Of a stretch of DNA of 51,841 bases, positions 16,121 through 25,539 are shown in pieces (within the stretch, counting starts at the first letter, position 1; every line of letters begins with the position of its first letter). This DNA comes from Planctomycetota bacterium (GTDB lineage: Bacteria; Planctomycetota; UBA1135; UBA2386). Below the pieces are notes generated by a model. It saw only the letters and a program-made list of their open reading frames with translations. It did no database searches and had not been told where the DNA came from. A program made the translations under genes and the position numbers. The DNA is taken from assembly GCA_016872675.1 (NCBI GenBank), contig VGZG01000018.1, positions 1-51,841 of the forward strand, read 5' to 3'.

Positions 16121-17479
16121 TCAGCCGAGCCCGAAACCCAACCGCTGCAGTTCGTCGGCCAGCGTCTGGCGCGCGGCGAGGTAGCTGCTGCCTTCGCCCC
16201 ACGCCGCGGCGATGCGCTCGGTCCAGCCCTTGTCGAGATTGACGGGCTTGCCGCCGTAACCACCGCGCTCGGCGTTGGTGCGCGCGGCCCACGCGCGGAT
16301 CACCGCGTCGGTGCCGTCCAGCGCCGGATCGACGGCGGCGTGGTCATAACGCTCCCAATGCAGCACACCCGGCAGCGGCATGCGGCCGCGCGGCACCGGA
16401 TCGTCGGTCGGCACGCCGATCGTCATGCCAAACAGCGCGAAGCATCCCGGCGGCAGATCGAGCAGCTGCGCCAGCTCGATCGGATGGTTGCGCGCCGCGC
16501 CGATCATGCACGCGCCGAGGCCCTCGGCTTCGGCGGCGAGCTGCAGGTTCTGGCCGAGCAGCGCTGCGTCGACGACCGCCTGCAGGAACAGCTCCAGGCT
16601 CTGCGTCTGCAGCGTCGCGCCGTGCCGGCCGCACGCGGCGGCGAGCTTGCGCAGGTCGGCGCAAACGGCGGCGAACACCGGCGCCTGCACGATGTGCGAC
16701 TGGCCGCTGCACAGGCGCGCGCACGCGCCCTTCTGTTCGGCGTCCTGCACCAGCACGACGCTGTAGGCCTGGAGCCAGCTCGACGTCGAGGCGTGACGCG
16801 CGGCGTCGACGAGCCGTTCGAGCTGCGCCTTGGGCACCGGTGTCGGCGCGTAGGCGCGGCGGCTGCGGTGCGCGAACATCTGCGCCACGGTCGGCAGCGG
16901 GCCGGCGTGCAGCGCGCAGACGGCGGCGCGGTGGTCCTCGGGCCGATCGAGATCGGCGAGCACCCACGGATTGGCGCTCGGCAACGCGCGCACGCGCGCC
17001 GGCTCGCGGCGCACGAGGTCGCGCAGCACGGCGCCCGCATTCTGGATCTCGGCGAACACCGCGCGCGAAAATGCGACCGGGTGGCCCGGCTTGCCGCGGA
17101 ACAGCGGCAGCGCCACGCCAGCGCCCTGCAGCACGGCGGCGACACCGGCGAGCACGGTGTCGGCGGCGACGAGCGCGTGGTCGACGGGAAACACGACCAC
17201 CACGCCCGCGTCGGCCGGCAGCGCGCGCTCGGCCGCGCGCAGGCTGTCGGCCATCTCACCGCCGGCGGGCACACGCACGACCTGCGCGCCAAGACCTTCG
17301 GGCAGCGGCTCGGCGCCCTCGCGCCGCACGACCAGCACGTCGGCGACGCCCGCGTCGCGGCAACTCTGCACGACGCGTTCGATCGCGGTCGCGCCGGCGA
17401 GCTCGAGCAGCGCCTTGTCAGCGCCCATGCGCACGCCGCGTCCGGCCGCCGGCACGATCGCGACGGGGCGCGGCGTCAT
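16121..17479 (-). CDS. Fusion: MobA-like nucleotidyltransferase + nitroreductase
   Basis: A single uninterrupted 452-residue frame joins two enzymes. Residues about 5-190 are a MobA/MocA-like nucleotidyltransferase: AAGRGVRMGADKALLELAG (residues 11-29) is the nucleotide-binding loop with its conserved Lys, Asp100 in FPVDHAL is the likely metal ligand, and GKPGHPVAFSR is typical of the family. Residues about 195-440 are an FMN nitroreductase domain beginning MFAHRSRRAYAPTPVPKAQL and including a GLGACMIGA segment. I know no standard enzyme with this arrangement. A cofactor-modifying role (cytidylyl or guanylyl transfer plus flavin reduction) is conceivable but unproven. It begins 4 nt after the pyrE stop and must be co-expressed with pyrE. 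Confidence 0.82.
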   Translation of the reverse strand: MTPRPVAIVPAAGRGVRMGADKALLELAGATAIERVVQSCRDAGVADVLVVRREGAEPLPEGLGAQVVRVPAGGEMADSLRAAERALPADAGVVVVFPVDHALVAADTVLAGVAAVLQGAGVALPLFRGKPGHPVAFSRAVFAEIQNAGAVLRDLVRREPARVRALPSANPWVLADLDRPEDHRAAVCALHAGPLPTVAQMFAHRSRRAYAPTPVPKAQLERLVDAARHASTSSWLQAYSVVLVQDAEQKGACARLCSGQSHIVQAPVFAAVCADLRKLAAACGRHGATLQTQSLELFLQAVVDAALLGQNLQLAAEAEGLGACMIGAARNHPIELAQLLDLPPGCFALFGMTIGVPTDDPVPRGRMPLPGVLHWERYDHAAVDPALDGTDAVIRAWAARTNAERGGYGGKPVNLDKGWTERIAAAWGEGSSYLAARQTLADELQRLGFGLG

Positions 17480-17483
17480 CGCG

Positions 17484-18050
17484 TCAGCTCCCGCGGATCT
17501 CGCTGAGCGTCAGCAGGCAGTCGGTCTTCCACTCCTTGCGGAAGGCGTCGGCGTCCGGGTCCTCGCGGTCGGCGATCGCCATGACGACGACCGGCACGGC
17601 GCCGGCCGCGAGCACGGCGGCGATCGCTTTCTTCGCCGAGCCGCCGGTGGTCACCGTGTCCTCGAGGATCGCGACCCTCTCGCCCTTGTCGAGGTCGCCC
17701 TCGATCAGGCTGGCGGTGCCGTGGCCCTTGGCTTCCTTGCGCACGAGGAAGGCCTTGAGGTTCTGGCCGGTCTCGAAGCTCAGCGCCGCGACCGCGCTGG
17801 CGAGCGGATCGGCGCCGATGGTCAGGCCGCCGACGGCGGTGATGCCCGGGTAGCCCTTGAGCTTCTCCAGCAGCAGCTTGGCGATCAGCCACAGCCCCTC
17901 GGGGTGCAGGCTGACCTTCTTGCCATTGATGTAGAACGTCGAGCGCTTGCCGGACGCGAGCACGATGTCGATGCCGTCCTTGTAGGCGCGTTCGCGGACG
18001 AGCTGGAGAAGGCGGTTCTTACCCGCCTTGGGGTCGAAGGGCTTGGTCAC
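17484..18050 (-). CDS. pyrE: Orotate phosphoribosyltransferase PyrE
   Basis: The 188-residue enzyme joins orotate to PRPP to give OMP, the fifth step of UMP synthesis. It shows the substrate lysine region SGKRSTFYINGKKVSLHPEG, the AVGGLTIGADPL loop, and the PRPP-binding signature VAILEDTVTTGGSAKKAI. I use GTG 18050. A GTG 13 codons upstream (18089) would put the start inside a long hairpin (18065-18097) that is more likely regulatory. Codons just before the start also form a five-codon out-of-frame ORF ending on the GTG. It lies downstream of the FG-GAP gene on the same strand and directly upstream of the fusion gene. Confidence 0.92.
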   Translation of the reverse strand: MTKPFDPKAGKNRLLQLVRERAYKDGIDIVLASGKRSTFYINGKKVSLHPEGLWLIAKLLLEKLKGYPGITAVGGLTIGADPLASAVAALSFETGQNLKAFLVRKEAKGHGTASLIEGDLDKGERVAILEDTVTTGGSAKKAIAAVLAAGAVPVVVMAIADREDPDADAFRKEWKTDCLLTLSEIRGS

Positions 18051-18064
18051 GGGGCGACCAGCAT

Positions 18065-18097
18065 TGCCGCGGGGGAAACGCTTTTCCACCCGCGGCA
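18065..18097 (-). promoter_or_regulatory. Strong hairpin in the pyrE leader / FG-GAP gene 3' end
   Basis: The inverted repeat pairs TGCCGCGGG with CCCGCGGCA (9 bp). After one bulged base it pairs five more base pairs around a 4-nt loop. It lies between the stop of the FG-GAP gene and the pyrE start, with no T tract after it in either direction. It may be the 3' end of the upstream transcript or an attenuator/translational control hairpin of pyrE, whose counterparts in other bacteria are often regulated by leader structures. Confidence 0.55.
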
Positions 18098-18125
18098 GAG
18101 GGCACGCCGTGAACGACCCGCGCGG

Positions 18126-19466
18126 CTACTTGGCCGGCGCGGCGTTCTTCTTGGCGGCGAGGTTCTCGTACAGCCAGACGAACGACTTGCGCTGGCGCGG
18201 CGGCACCAGCGTGTCGAGTTCCTTCTGGGCGGCGCTGCGGTCCTTGCCGATCGCTTGGAAGTCCGACTGCCGCGCCTTGTAGCGCTCGGTGTAGAGCTTG
18301 CTGCGCGCCTCGCCGGCGGCGTCGCCGAGGCCGTCGTTGACCTCCTTGAGCACCTGCTGGAAGCGCGCATCGCAGTCCTTCAGCGCCGCCTGCAGCGCCG
18401 CGACGCGCTCCTGCTGTGCGGCGTCGAGCGGCTTCGGGCTCGCGCGCCAGTGCGAGTAGGCGCCGACCAGCAGGTCGAGGTCGCCGTCGCCATCGACGTC
18501 GCCGAAGTCCATGTACAGGCCGGCGTCGGGACGCGCTGGCGCGTCGCCGACGTGGTCCTGCTGGCTGCGCGCGATCAGCTCGATCGGCGCGCCCCACGCG
18601 GCGGCCTTGCCGTCGCCGACGTTGGGCCACACCCACACGCCGCCGCCCTCGCCGTCGCCGAACGAGCCGCCCATGCTGCCGCACGCGAGGTCCTGCTTGC
18701 CGTCGCCGTTCCAGTCGACGAGCCGCATGGTCGCGACCGTGCCGGGCACGTCGATCCGCGCGCCCGCCGCGGTGACCGGCTGGTTGACGAGGTCGAACGC
18801 CGGCTTGCCCGGCGCGCCGTCGTTGCGCCGCCAGAACACGCGGCCGCTCTCGTGGTCGCCGAGCAGCAGGTCGAGGTCGCCGTCGCCGTCCACGTCGAAC
18901 GCGAGCGTCGAGGTGGCGTGCGCTTCGCCTTCATGGCCGGGCGCGTCGTACGCGTGCGTGCTGTCCCACTTCTTGGTGTCGAAGTTCCAGAAGGCGTTGA
19001 GAACGATCCGCGCGCCGTCGCGGCCGAGGATCTGCTCCGGCTTCTGCCAACCTTGCTTGCTGCCGCGGCTGACGTGCGGCGAGCCGTCGAAGATGCCGGC
19101 GACGATGTCGAGCTGGCCATCCGCGTCGAAGTCCACGAACTGTGGACTCATGCCGATGCATCACCAGTTGTCGAAGTCGAGCGGCTGGCCGTCGGCGGCG
19201 AGCACCTTGGTCTCGGAGCCGTAGGCCGGCGTGCCCGCAGCAGCGTTCGCGCGCGGCGCGACGGTGAGCACGCCGATCAGGTCACCGACGACGACGTCGA
19301 CGCGGCCTTCGCCATCGAGGTCGTGCAGGACCGGCGACGGGTAGAGGCGGCCTTCGCCGAGAAACTTGTCGCCTGCTTTCAGGCGCACCGGCGGCGCGAA
19401 CTGCGGAGCCTGCGCGACGGCAGTCGCCGCAGCGCAAGCGAGAAGGGGCAGGAGGAGCGGGCGCAT
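18126..19466 (-). CDS. Exported FG-GAP/VCBS repeat selenoprotein (Sec102 encoded by TGA, adjacent to Cys103)
   Basis: Two abutting frames are one gene. ATG 19466 starts a signal peptide (MRPLLLPLLACAAATAVAQ) and an FG-GAP blade (SPVLHDLDGEGRVDVVVGD). The frame meets a TGA at 19163-19161 after DFDNW, and then continues in the same frame as CIGMSPQFVDFDADGQLD into further FG-GAP blades, through MRLVDWNGDGKQDLACGS and MDFGDVDGDGDLDLLVGAY, to a helical Lys-rich C-terminus. Reading TGA as selenocysteine gives 446 residues with Sec102-Cys103 between blades of one propeller. A 7-bp SECIS-like hairpin follows. FG-GAP blades bind Ca through D-x-D-x-D-G loops. The protein would act outside the cytoplasm, where Sec-Cys could form a selenylsulfide or bind a soft metal. 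The downstream half alone would lack any export signal, which argues against two genes. A nonsense-mutated pseudogene is the alternative. Confidence 0.82.
19130..19148 (-). promoter_or_regulatory. Candidate bacterial SECIS hairpin for the FG-GAP gene
   Basis: In the mRNA AGUCCAC pairs perfectly with GUGGACU around the loop AGUUC, and a G-U pair can extend the stem to 8. With the U of UGA as base 1, the stem spans 16-34 and the loop G is base 24, almost exactly the spacing of the E. coli fdhF element. Loop position 2 is G followed by U, as in the hairpin of the AhpD-like gene. Confidence 0.72.
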
Positions 19467-19475
19467 GCGCGTCAC

Positions 19476-19481
19476 AGGATA
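19476..19481 (-). promoter_or_regulatory. -10-like hexamer TATCCT of the FG-GAP selenoprotein gene
   Basis: TATCCT ends 9 nt before ATG 19466, the same hexamer seen before the ABC-F gene. This supports that ATG as the true start of the TGA-containing gene. Confidence 0.5.
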
Positions 19482-19724
19482 CCAACGCGCGGCCGACCAG
19501 CCGGCGCGCCAGCACGAAAAGTGGCCGGCTGGCCGACGCAGCGCGTGCGTCTGGGCCAGTGTGCGCATGCGCCGGACCGCGCGCACGGCGCGCTGCCAGT
19601 CGCGCGTTCGCGACGCACGGCTGACGGTAGTACCATCCCGCTCTTCGCACGAGCGCCCCGCCACCGCCGCTACTTCGAGCCGTCTTCCGCCTTGCAAACT
19701 GCACGCCGCGCGCAATCGCAACCC

Positions 19725-20636
19725 ATGGGACCGCGCTCGCTCCGCGAACCGCTCGTCGACGCCATCGACTTCGCCGCCGCCGAAGCGCTGGTGCGCTCGG
19801 GCATCGACAGCGCGCGCGTCGTCGTCGCCAACGGTCAGGACGCGCTGCGCGCACGCGACGCCGCGGCTGCCGGCTGTGCTGCCGGCGATGGGCCGACGCC
19901 GACCGCGCCGCATGTGCCGCCGTGGCGCACGCTGGTCGTGATCCCGACCTACAACGAGAAGGACAACCTCGCGGCGATCGTGCGCGCGATCTGGCTGTAC
20001 CTCGACTGCGACATCCTGGTGGTCGACGACGGCAGCCCGGACGGCACCGGCCAGATCGCCGACCGCCTCGCCGCCGCCGACGGCCGCCTGCACGTGCTGC
20101 ACCGCGCCGGCAAGCAGGGCCTCGGCACCGCCTACCTCGCCGGCTTCCGCTTCGCGTTCGAGCGCGGCTACGAGCGCGTCTGCGAGATGGACGCCGACTT
20201 CAGTCACGCGCCGTGGGACCTGCCGCGGCTGGTATTCGGCTCGGCCGACGCCGAACTCGTCATCGGCAGCCGGTACGTGCAGGGCGGCTGCACCATCGGC
20301 TGGGGCTGGCAGCGACGCCTGCTCTCGCGCGGCGCCAACCTCTATGCGCGCTGCGTGCTGGGCAGCGGCATCCGCGACAACACCGCCGGATTCCGCGTCT
20401 TCCACGCCGACGCGCTGCGGCGCCTCGACCTCGGCGCGGTCGCCGCGCAGGGCTACGCCTTCCAGATCGAGATGGCGTTCCGCATGGTGCGCGCCGGCTG
20501 CCGCGTGAAGGAGCTACCGATCCACTTCGTCGACCGCTTCGTCGGCAAGTCGAAGATGGACGGCAGGATCGCGCGCGAGGCGCTGCTGCTGGTTCCGAGG
20601 CTGCGCGGCCGCGTGCCGAAGCTGCGCGCGCGCTGA
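19725..20636 (+). CDS. Polyprenol-phosphate mannosyltransferase-like GT2 enzyme
   Basis: The 303-residue protein is a family 2 glycosyltransferase of the dolichol-phosphate mannose synthase type: VVIPTYNEKDNL (start of the GT-A domain near residue 68), VVDDGSPDGT, and the metal-binding DADFSH, followed by the family segment ELVIGSRYVQGG. It would move mannose (or glucose) from a nucleotide donor to a polyprenol phosphate at the inner membrane. It lacks C-terminal membrane helices, as catalytic-domain-only members do. The first 65 residues (helical, Ala/Arg-rich) are an unusual N-terminal extension. A long open frame extends far upstream but is antisense to other genes. ATG 19725 is the first convincing start. 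A TACCAT about 90 nt upstream could be its promoter. Confidence 0.85.
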   Translation: MGPRSLREPLVDAIDFAAAEALVRSGIDSARVVVANGQDALRARDAAAAGCAAGDGPTPTAPHVPPWRTLVVIPTYNEKDNLAAIVRAIWLYLDCDILVVDDGSPDGTGQIADRLAAADGRLHVLHRAGKQGLGTAYLAGFRFAFERGYERVCEMDADFSHAPWDLPRLVFGSADAELVIGSRYVQGGCTIGWGWQRRLLSRGANLYARCVLGSGIRDNTAGFRVFHADALRRLDLGAVAAQGYAFQIEMAFRMVRAGCRVKELPIHFVDRFVGKSKMDGRIAREALLLVPRLRGRVPKLRAR

Positions 20637-23706: not shown

Positions 23707-25539
23707 TCATTTCCCCTGCGCGCCATTCGTGGTGGCAATCACGGTCCACGACTCGCCCGGTCCCAGCAGCAACGACGGCGTCGGCGCCAGCGCCTGCTGC
23801 AGCGCGTGCAGGCCGCGCAGCGCCATCCGCGGCCGCTCGGGATTGGACTCGGGCAGGAACGCATCGTCGATCGCGACGAGCCGCGGCCTGACCTTCTGCA
23901 CGATCGCCAGCAGCTCGGGCGCATACGGACAGACGACGGCGACGTCGACCGGCTCGGCCGGCACGTCCTCGGCGCGGAGCGTCGGGCCGACGAACAGGCA
24001 GCTCGGGCCCTTGGGCACGTCGATGCGGTAGCTGCAGCTCCAGGCGACGAAGCTGTCCTGTGGCGGCGCGCCGAGCGCGTCGATGCGGGTGCCGCCGGCG
24101 CTGGGATACGACTTGCCGGGCTCGACGATGGCCATCGTCGCCATCGGCACGACCGGCAGATGGAAGGCGACGTGCGTCAGCAGCGTGCGCGGCGGCTCGT
24201 GGAGCGCCATGCGCACGAGTAGCTGGTCGTTGCGCCGCGTCATGTCGAGCGGCTGCGTCAGCGCGCAGAACTCGATCGCACCCCACAGGAACTCCGGCAC
24301 GTCGGCGCCGGCAGCGTCAACCGCGAAGTTGCGCGTCGCCGAACGCACGAGCCAGCCGCCCATCGGCAGCCGGAAGAGTCGCGCAGCGCCAGCGGGCACC
24401 GGATCCTCGGCCGCCTTCGACAGCGCTTCCAGGCGATTGCGCCACAGCCACGGCAGGCCGCGCGCGTGCAAACCAGCGGTCTCGCGGTTCATGCGGCGAT
24501 GCACGCGTTGGCAGAGTTCGAGGAAGTCGACGCGCGGCATGCGCGCGCACGCGGTGTCGAGTTCCTCCAGCAGTTCGAGTCGCTTGGTCCCGCCGGCGTC
24601 GGCCGGGGCGCCCTTGCCGTCGAACACGGCCGGCGGATTGGCGAGCAGTCGAGCGATCCATGGCCCCCACCGCTTCTCGCCGGGCGGTGGCGCGTCCTTC
24701 GCGCCGGGCTTGGGCGGGAACTCGGGCACCAGCCCCTGCAAGGCCGACGTGTCGCCGAGCAGCATCAGGCTGGCGAGCAGGCCGGGATCGACCACCGGGC
24801 TGCAGCCGAACGTGAGCCCGATGCGCGTCTGCGGCATCGCATCGGTGGTCTCGTCGAAGTCGTTGACGACGACCTGCAGGTCGATCACGCGGCCGGCCTT
24901 CGGCGCGTCGTCGACCGGCAGGATCTCGCGCCACGGGATGCGCGCCTCGTAGCTGGTGACGCCGCGCTCCTTGTCGTGAACGGCGACAACGCGCGCCGAC
25001 TTCTCGTCGAGCATACGTGCGTCGCCGCGCAGCCGATCCCATTGCACGACCTGGCGGCCGGCCTCGTCGGCGAGCCAGAACTCGCGGTCCTCGCGGCGCC
25101 CCGGATCGTCGCCGGCGGCGCGCGTGTCGCGATTGGGGTCGAACGTCAGCACGACGCTGTCGCAGGCTGGGATCTCGACGATGCGCAGCGACTTCGCGTC
25201 GAGGCCGCGATGCCATTCGTCGCGCACGGCGAGGCCGACGTACAATGCGTCAGCGTCCCAGACGAAGAACGCCTGCGCGCTGAGGTCGCTGGCGCCGATC
25301 CAGGCCTTGTTGGCCGTGCCCGACAGCTGGCGCGTGTCGTCCAAGCGCAGCGCTGGCAGTTCCGGCCAGTCGACAAGCGAGCCGTCGATTGCGATCGCCT
25401 TGTCGCCGCGCGGCAGCGCCAGCGCATGCGGCACCAGCATCGGCTCCGGTCGCTGCGGCTTGTTGGAGCTGCCCGGCGGCCCCTGGGCAACGAGCGCCGC
25501 AGTGGCGGCCGCGGCCGCGATCACGCTTCGGAACGACAC
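23707..25539 (-). CDS. Exported protein with CBM9-like domain
   Basis: The 610-residue protein has a signal peptide (residues 1-19). A CBM9/DOMON-like beta-sandwich follows (about residues 45-245), with IDGSLVDWPELPALRL, FFVWDADALYVGLAVRDE and ARIPWREILP being typical of that fold. A central region of about 150 helical residues has no recognised family, and the C-terminal domain contains VDVAVVCPYAPELL and RLVAIDDAFLP, which resemble a beta-lactamase-fold scaffold without its metal ligands. It may bind carbohydrate in the periplasm or at the surface. It starts at GTG 25539, where GGAGG lies 5 nt upstream, and overlaps the end of the CPBP gene by 19 nt as the last gene of a four-gene operon. 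Confidence 0.68.
   Translation of the reverse strand: MSFRSVIAAAAATAALVAQGPPGSSNKPQRPEPMLVPHALALPRGDKAIAIDGSLVDWPELPALRLDDTRQLSGTANKAWIGASDLSAQAFFVWDADALYVGLAVRDEWHRGLDAKSLRIVEIPACDSVVLTFDPNRDTRAAGDDPGRREDREFWLADEAGRQVVQWDRLRGDARMLDEKSARVVAVHDKERGVTSYEARIPWREILPVDDAPKAGRVIDLQVVVNDFDETTDAMPQTRIGLTFGCSPVVDPGLLASLMLLGDTSALQGLVPEFPPKPGAKDAPPPGEKRWGPWIARLLANPPAVFDGKGAPADAGGTKRLELLEELDTACARMPRVDFLELCQRVHRRMNRETAGLHARGLPWLWRNRLEALSKAAEDPVPAGAARLFRLPMGGWLVRSATRNFAVDAAGADVPEFLWGAIEFCALTQPLDMTRRNDQLLVRMALHEPPRTLLTHVAFHLPVVPMATMAIVEPGKSYPSAGGTRIDALGAPPQDSFVAWSCSYRIDVPKGPSCLFVGPTLRAEDVPAEPVDVAVVCPYAPELLAIVQKVRPRLVAIDDAFLPESNPERPRMALRGLHALQQALAPTPSLLLGPGESWTVIATTNGAQGK

Follow-up and report, generated by a model that had tools for sequence, protein, structure and literature searches.

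Adjacent Cys and Sec residues are found in the C-terminal Gly-Cys-Sec-Gly of mammalian thioredoxin reductase, where the pair forms a selenylsulfide. In PQQ-dependent methanol dehydrogenase, a vicinal disulfide lies next to PQQ on the propeller of the enzyme. With regard to the RNA signal for Sec insertion, SelB recognises the nucleotides G23-U24 in the hairpin loop of E. coli fdhF. The selenoprotein families listed in Table 1 of a 2026 inventory (PMC13188914) have UGA-encoded Sec, a downstream hairpin, Cys homologs and a likely redox role in common, and some of them carry a vicinal CU motif; according to the same source, the majority of selenoproteins described so far have a thioredoxin-like fold. 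FG-GAP/FG-GAP_3 proteins (PF01839, PF13517), e.g., the integrin alpha propeller, CRTAC1 and ITFG2, are built from repeats with DxDxDG calcium-loop-like motifs.

Here, we relate to these systems a gene on the minus strand of a 51,841 nt window (i.e., the whole stretch of DNA that was analysed) from a Planctomycetota genome. The gene shares the listed traits of the selenoprotein families, but its pair has the order U-C, is placed in an inter-blade turn of a propeller, and the protein is probably exported. It shares the repeats of the FG-GAP/FG-GAP_3 proteins; unlike them, it apparently has five blades, the last of which contains a helical insertion, and its Sec/Cys-Cys pair is invariant. The vicinal Cys-Cys pair, the propeller and the probable location outside the cytoplasm are also found in PQQ-dependent methanol dehydrogenase, whereas blade family and blade number differ, and we found neither a sequence relation nor evidence for a PQQ site. 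Mammalian thioredoxin reductase is unrelated: there, the adjacent residues come in reverse order and belong to the C-terminal tail of a flavoenzyme. From the comparisons below, we consider it almost certain that the UGA at residue 102 encodes Sec, and very probable that the gene is a true selenoprotein of a newly recognised family, i.e., of exported FG-GAP beta-propellers as predicted by sequence and structure models. The features of the gene are collected in Table 1.

Table 1. Features of the selenoprotein gene, with positions in window coordinates and the respective basis of each assignment.
Feature	Position	Strand	Basis and remarks
Selenoprotein ORF	18126..19466	minus	446 aa, Sec = residue 102, TAG stop; translated with TGA=U; full-length collinear orthologs
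Probable Sec-type signal peptide, ~residues 1-19, MRPLLLPLLACAAATAVAQ	19410..19466	minus	sequence inspection; full-length homologs with hydrophobic N-termini
Sec102 codon TGA	19161..19163	minus	column is TGA or a Cys codon in every profile-aligned homolog
Invariant Cys103 codon TGC, directly after Sec	19158..19160	minus	invariant in A1 and A2
SECIS hairpin (bacterial type, apical), stem of 7 bp, loop AGUUC (19141-19137)	19130..19148	minus	fold, conservation, covariation, frozen synonymous codons
Strongest FG-GAP_3 match, residues 191-261, with calcium-loop-like motifs DxDGDGDxD	18684..18896	minus	Pfam PF13517, 68.7 bits vs cut-off 26.9
FG-GAP repeat, residues 251-280	18627..18716	minus	Pfam PF01839, 54 bits vs cut-off 22.1
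Helical insertion in last blade, residues 349-420	18207..18422	minus	AlphaFold2 helices 349-378, 385-398, 400-420, high pLDDT

The reading frame starts with the ATG at 19466, holds a sole in-frame TGA (19163-19161) and closes with a TAG that ends at 18126. Codon-position GC is coding-like both 5' and 3' of the TGA. An earlier note, made from the sequence of the window, had claimed a signal peptide and FG-GAP blades around this TGA as well as a Cys directly after it, i.e., a Sec102-Cys103 pair. All of these elements are present: FG-GAP_3 and FG-GAP score above their curated Pfam cut-offs, which together with the propeller fold predicted by AlphaFold2 identifies an FG-GAP repeat protein, and TGC is indeed the next codon. 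The gene adjoins two ordinary housekeeping genes, namely pyrE (downstream) and purF (upstream). Antisense to it runs an open frame of 1221 codons (window 16971-20636, plus strand), which is probably a high-GC artefact given its poor codon-position GC.

We scanned 84,980 species genomes for homologs. The strong named relatives are six, all of them Planctomycetota MAGs with TGA-Cys at the site; for one of these, the N-terminus is located on another contig. Distant relatives are three WOR-3 loci with TGA-Cys and one gammaproteobacterial locus with Cys-Cys. Both kinds of homologs that the earlier note had suggested searching for, TGA-Cys and Cys-Cys at the same place, thus exist. Matches are found in 29/34 genomes of the host's taxonomic family. 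Within Planctomycetota, 126/392 genomes (84/267 genera) reach 1e-15, the weakest of which may be other FG-GAP proteins. The family is also present in 30/147 WOR-3 genomes, with U-C in 12/12 loci read; of the three WOR-3 genomes from the initial scan, two contain a tRNA-Sec. Members fall into several paralogous subfamilies plus Cys versions, and a genome often holds several paralogs. At L111 (G414) and L112 (G172), we observed two neighbouring same-strand paralogs of the VW-U-CTSxTPQFVD subfamily, each with TGA and hairpin core. The remote matches L020, L021 and L023-L025 turned out to be other FG-GAP proteins with unreliable alignment at the site and were excluded. No family member was found among the IMG/VR viral contigs.

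To describe the site itself, we use two alignments. In the profile-guided alignment of the Planctomycetota loci, whose rows were not chosen by the codon at the site, this position shows only TGA or TGC/TGT, and Cys comes next without exception. In a 29-row protein alignment, columns 102 and 103 as well as many calcium-loop aspartates and glycines are invariant; these rows were drawn from TGA-form loci, such that column 102 is invariant by selection while column 103 is not.

The family is apparently undescribed, and it is widespread. Among the main texts of the open-access papers searched, we found none that joins FG-GAP with bacterial selenoproteins, in line with the earlier note, which knew of no FG-GAP selenoprotein family with this pair. 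Neither the 119 prokaryotic selenoprotein families and subfamilies of the 2026 inventory (PMC13188914 Table 1) include an FG-GAP or beta-propeller family, nor is any of the new deep-Sep families (PMC12013277) of FG-GAP type. Planctomycete selenoprotein candidates are listed in the supplement of PMC4807772. NCBIfam (June 2026) holds no matching model but only weak FG-GAP-type matches; the identities FusH, XAC2610 and lectin were rejected, since these weak matches reflect the repeats. The family places Sec in a propeller that is probably secreted, and does so in phyla with little-studied selenoproteomes. With standard gene callers, its genes would come out truncated or split, and the annotation of many genomes is therefore probably wrong here.

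The downstream hairpin folds as had been claimed for it, i.e., with 7 perfect pairs around the loop AGUUC at bases 16-34, counted from the T of TGA, and it starts 12 bases after the UGA codon. Its loop G-U, ~24 bases from the UGA, resembles G23-U24 of the E. coli fdhF hairpin. A comparable hairpin follows 8/770 TGA trinucleotides of the window (~1%), such that the hairpin alone is weak evidence and its conservation is what counts. Since such hairpins are rare and since TGA, Cys and hairpin together recur in dozens of genomes, we do not regard it as a product of chance. The stem is kept in the TGA genes of Planctomycetota and broken in the Cys genes, and some subfamilies have lost the outermost stem pairs, namely one or two pairs in one of these subfamilies.

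This is also reflected in the covariation statistics. Among 30 distinct sequences, 90.5% of the pair cells show standard pairing compared to 28-39% when one side of the stem is slid, and compensatory change has altered 17 pair cells on both sides. The observed score was reached in 0/500 shuffles; of these controls, the slid stems account for relatedness and the shuffles do not. WOR-3 genes were left out of the count because their stem is displaced by one base. The codons within the hairpin are nearly frozen, i.e., their synonymous diversity is 0.056 compared to 0.357 at 116 other conserved columns. Ser107 is encoded by AGT in 20/20 sequences and Pro108 by CCA in 19/20, while nearby host genes use these codons at 3.6% and 6%, respectively. 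In WOR-3, the stem differs (e.g., GUCGC-AGUUU-GCGAC) and encodes other amino acids, while the loop is mostly AGUUU, shifted by one base. Given a different stem and different residues with a near-identical loop, conservation acts at the level of the RNA and not of the protein.

With regard to the residue at the site, Sec forms are far more numerous than Cys forms among the loci read. The Cys-Cys form YCCVG(G/A)QPRFVDL occurs in six genomes of one planctomycete genus, and tRNA-Sec and selB are both absent from these genomes (6/6). Most of the tested TGA-form genomes have tRNA-Sec. Four of them lack a tRNA-Sec match, for which incomplete assemblies or strict filters are the likelier explanation because all four have selB. 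In a quick tree, Cys forms appear in three separate places, and the Cys clade of the six genomes is sister to a Sec clade. Sec/Cys exchange within the family thus tracks the presence of the Sec machinery, G220 excepted. The latter genome has a Cys form (locus L096) along with tRNA-Sec and selB, i.e., Sec can be lost at the site although the genome retains the machinery. This natural Sec/Cys split, matched to the Sec machinery, offers a clean way to see what difference selenium makes in an extracytoplasmic pair of adjacent chalcogens.

The AlphaFold2 model (10 sequences) has a pLDDT of 85.2 and a pTM of 0.81. Counting from its secondary-structure string, the predicted propeller apparently consists of five FG-GAP-type blades, the last of which is closed by the conserved strand FVWLYEN. 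According to the same string, Sec102-Cys103 are part of a short helical turn (residues 99-106) between blades 1 and 2, where the local confidence is moderate (~72 for residues 101-110). A Foldseek search against the PDB resulted in no close solved structure but in distant propellers only, with TM-scores of about 0.2-0.4. Sequence and profile searches of the PDB gave weak matches to integrins, CRTAC1 and ITFG2, which are due to the FG-GAP repeats only. As their motifs suggest, the FG-GAP loops may bind calcium.

Given these observations, we propose the following mechanism. In accordance with established biology, SelB, Sec-tRNA and the SECIS would place Sec at UGA102, after which the protein would leave the cytoplasm via the Sec pathway. 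As predicted by AlphaFold2, it would adopt the fold of a small propeller that carries calcium-loop-like motifs as well as the helical insertion. The vicinal Sec102-Cys103 pair could then form an extracytoplasmic redox centre that cycles via a selenylsulfide in thiol, disulfide or peroxide chemistry, and in hosts without selenium machinery Cys-Cys would do the equivalent, probably slower. This reading, i.e., that the pair does extracytoplasmic thiol or peroxide redox chemistry through a selenylsulfide, is the one we prefer, and we give it even chances; we derive it from the conserved U-C / C-C pair. The suggestion of the earlier note, namely that a selenylsulfide serves peroxide or thiol reactions or else that a soft metal is bound, is plausible in this respect. 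Against a redox role, we found no match of the protein to a catalytic family and no closely similar solved structure, and the propeller turn is unlike the usual sites of thioredoxin-fold selenoproteins. A comparison of 20 loci revealed no conserved partner genes beyond the nearest relatives, such that the neighbourhood gives no functional clue.

Instead of turning over, the selenylsulfide could be a permanent vicinal bond that shapes a ligand-binding surface of the propeller. The predicted fold is in agreement with such a role, ligand binding is frequent among FG-GAP proteins, and vicinal disulfides are known in PQQ propellers, as beside PQQ in methanol dehydrogenase. Nevertheless, we rate this as rather unlikely: it would be unusual for a host to pay the high price of the Sec system when all that is needed is a structural bond, because Cys-Cys suffices for it, and the strong excess of Sec over Cys among the loci read also argues against a solely structural bond. 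Still more doubtful is the reading that the protein, once exported, acts not as a redox catalyst but as a binding protein, with the pair as its site for soft metals or metalloids such as mercury, copper, silver or arsenite. Vicinal thiol/selenol pairs do bind soft metals. Furthermore, several of the listed selenoprotein families with CU motif are linked to mercury (SaoL, HgcA; PMC13188914). On the other hand, metal-resistance or transport genes are not conserved beside the gene in the 20 loci, and no match to a metal-protein family was found. For the exported propeller family of Planctomycetota and WOR-3 as a whole, we tentatively suggest that the Sec-Cys turn may be a new kind of extracytoplasmic active site and that the family would contribute to the upkeep of Sec decoding in the two phyla.

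Finally, we turn to the host genome (G000; 3.58 Mb, 95% complete) and its genetic code. The earlier note had advised to check for selA, selB, selC and selD, and all four are present: selC as a single tRNA-Sec (72.7 bits, above the Rfam cut-off) with anticodon UCA (TCA in DNA), and the others as profile matches of 447 bits (selA), 343 bits (selB) and 344 bits (selD), with selA and selD being adjacent. UGA is the stop of 11/13 window ORFs checked, i.e., the standard code applies and UGA is not reassigned. A mechanical ORF begins at the ATG at 19151, which would fit a shorter downstream protein with the TGA being a real stop, the mark of a pseudogene or a sequencing error; yet independent genomes from two phyla share the TGA in a single column, and upstream coding, signal peptide and hairpin are conserved, which makes this reading highly improbable. 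That a changed code or near-cognate suppression places Trp, Cys or Gly at UGA has a negligible chance, for although readthrough by itself is no proof of Sec, UGA also ends many family members themselves besides the window ORFs, genomes without Sec machinery have Cys in its place, and the SECIS is conserved.

The host selD (G000:C131:1270-2190, locus L035), just after selA, has an in-frame TGA within its match; SelD is therefore probably a selenoprotein itself. Two further ORFs on the minus strand of the window are worth recording. The first (16121-17479) apparently joins a MobA/MocA-like NTP transferase to a nitroreductase domain in one protein and reaches no equivalog cut-off. The second (23707-25539) encodes 610 aa without Pfam or NCBIfam match, shows coding-like composition and has a relative in G028 and G031.
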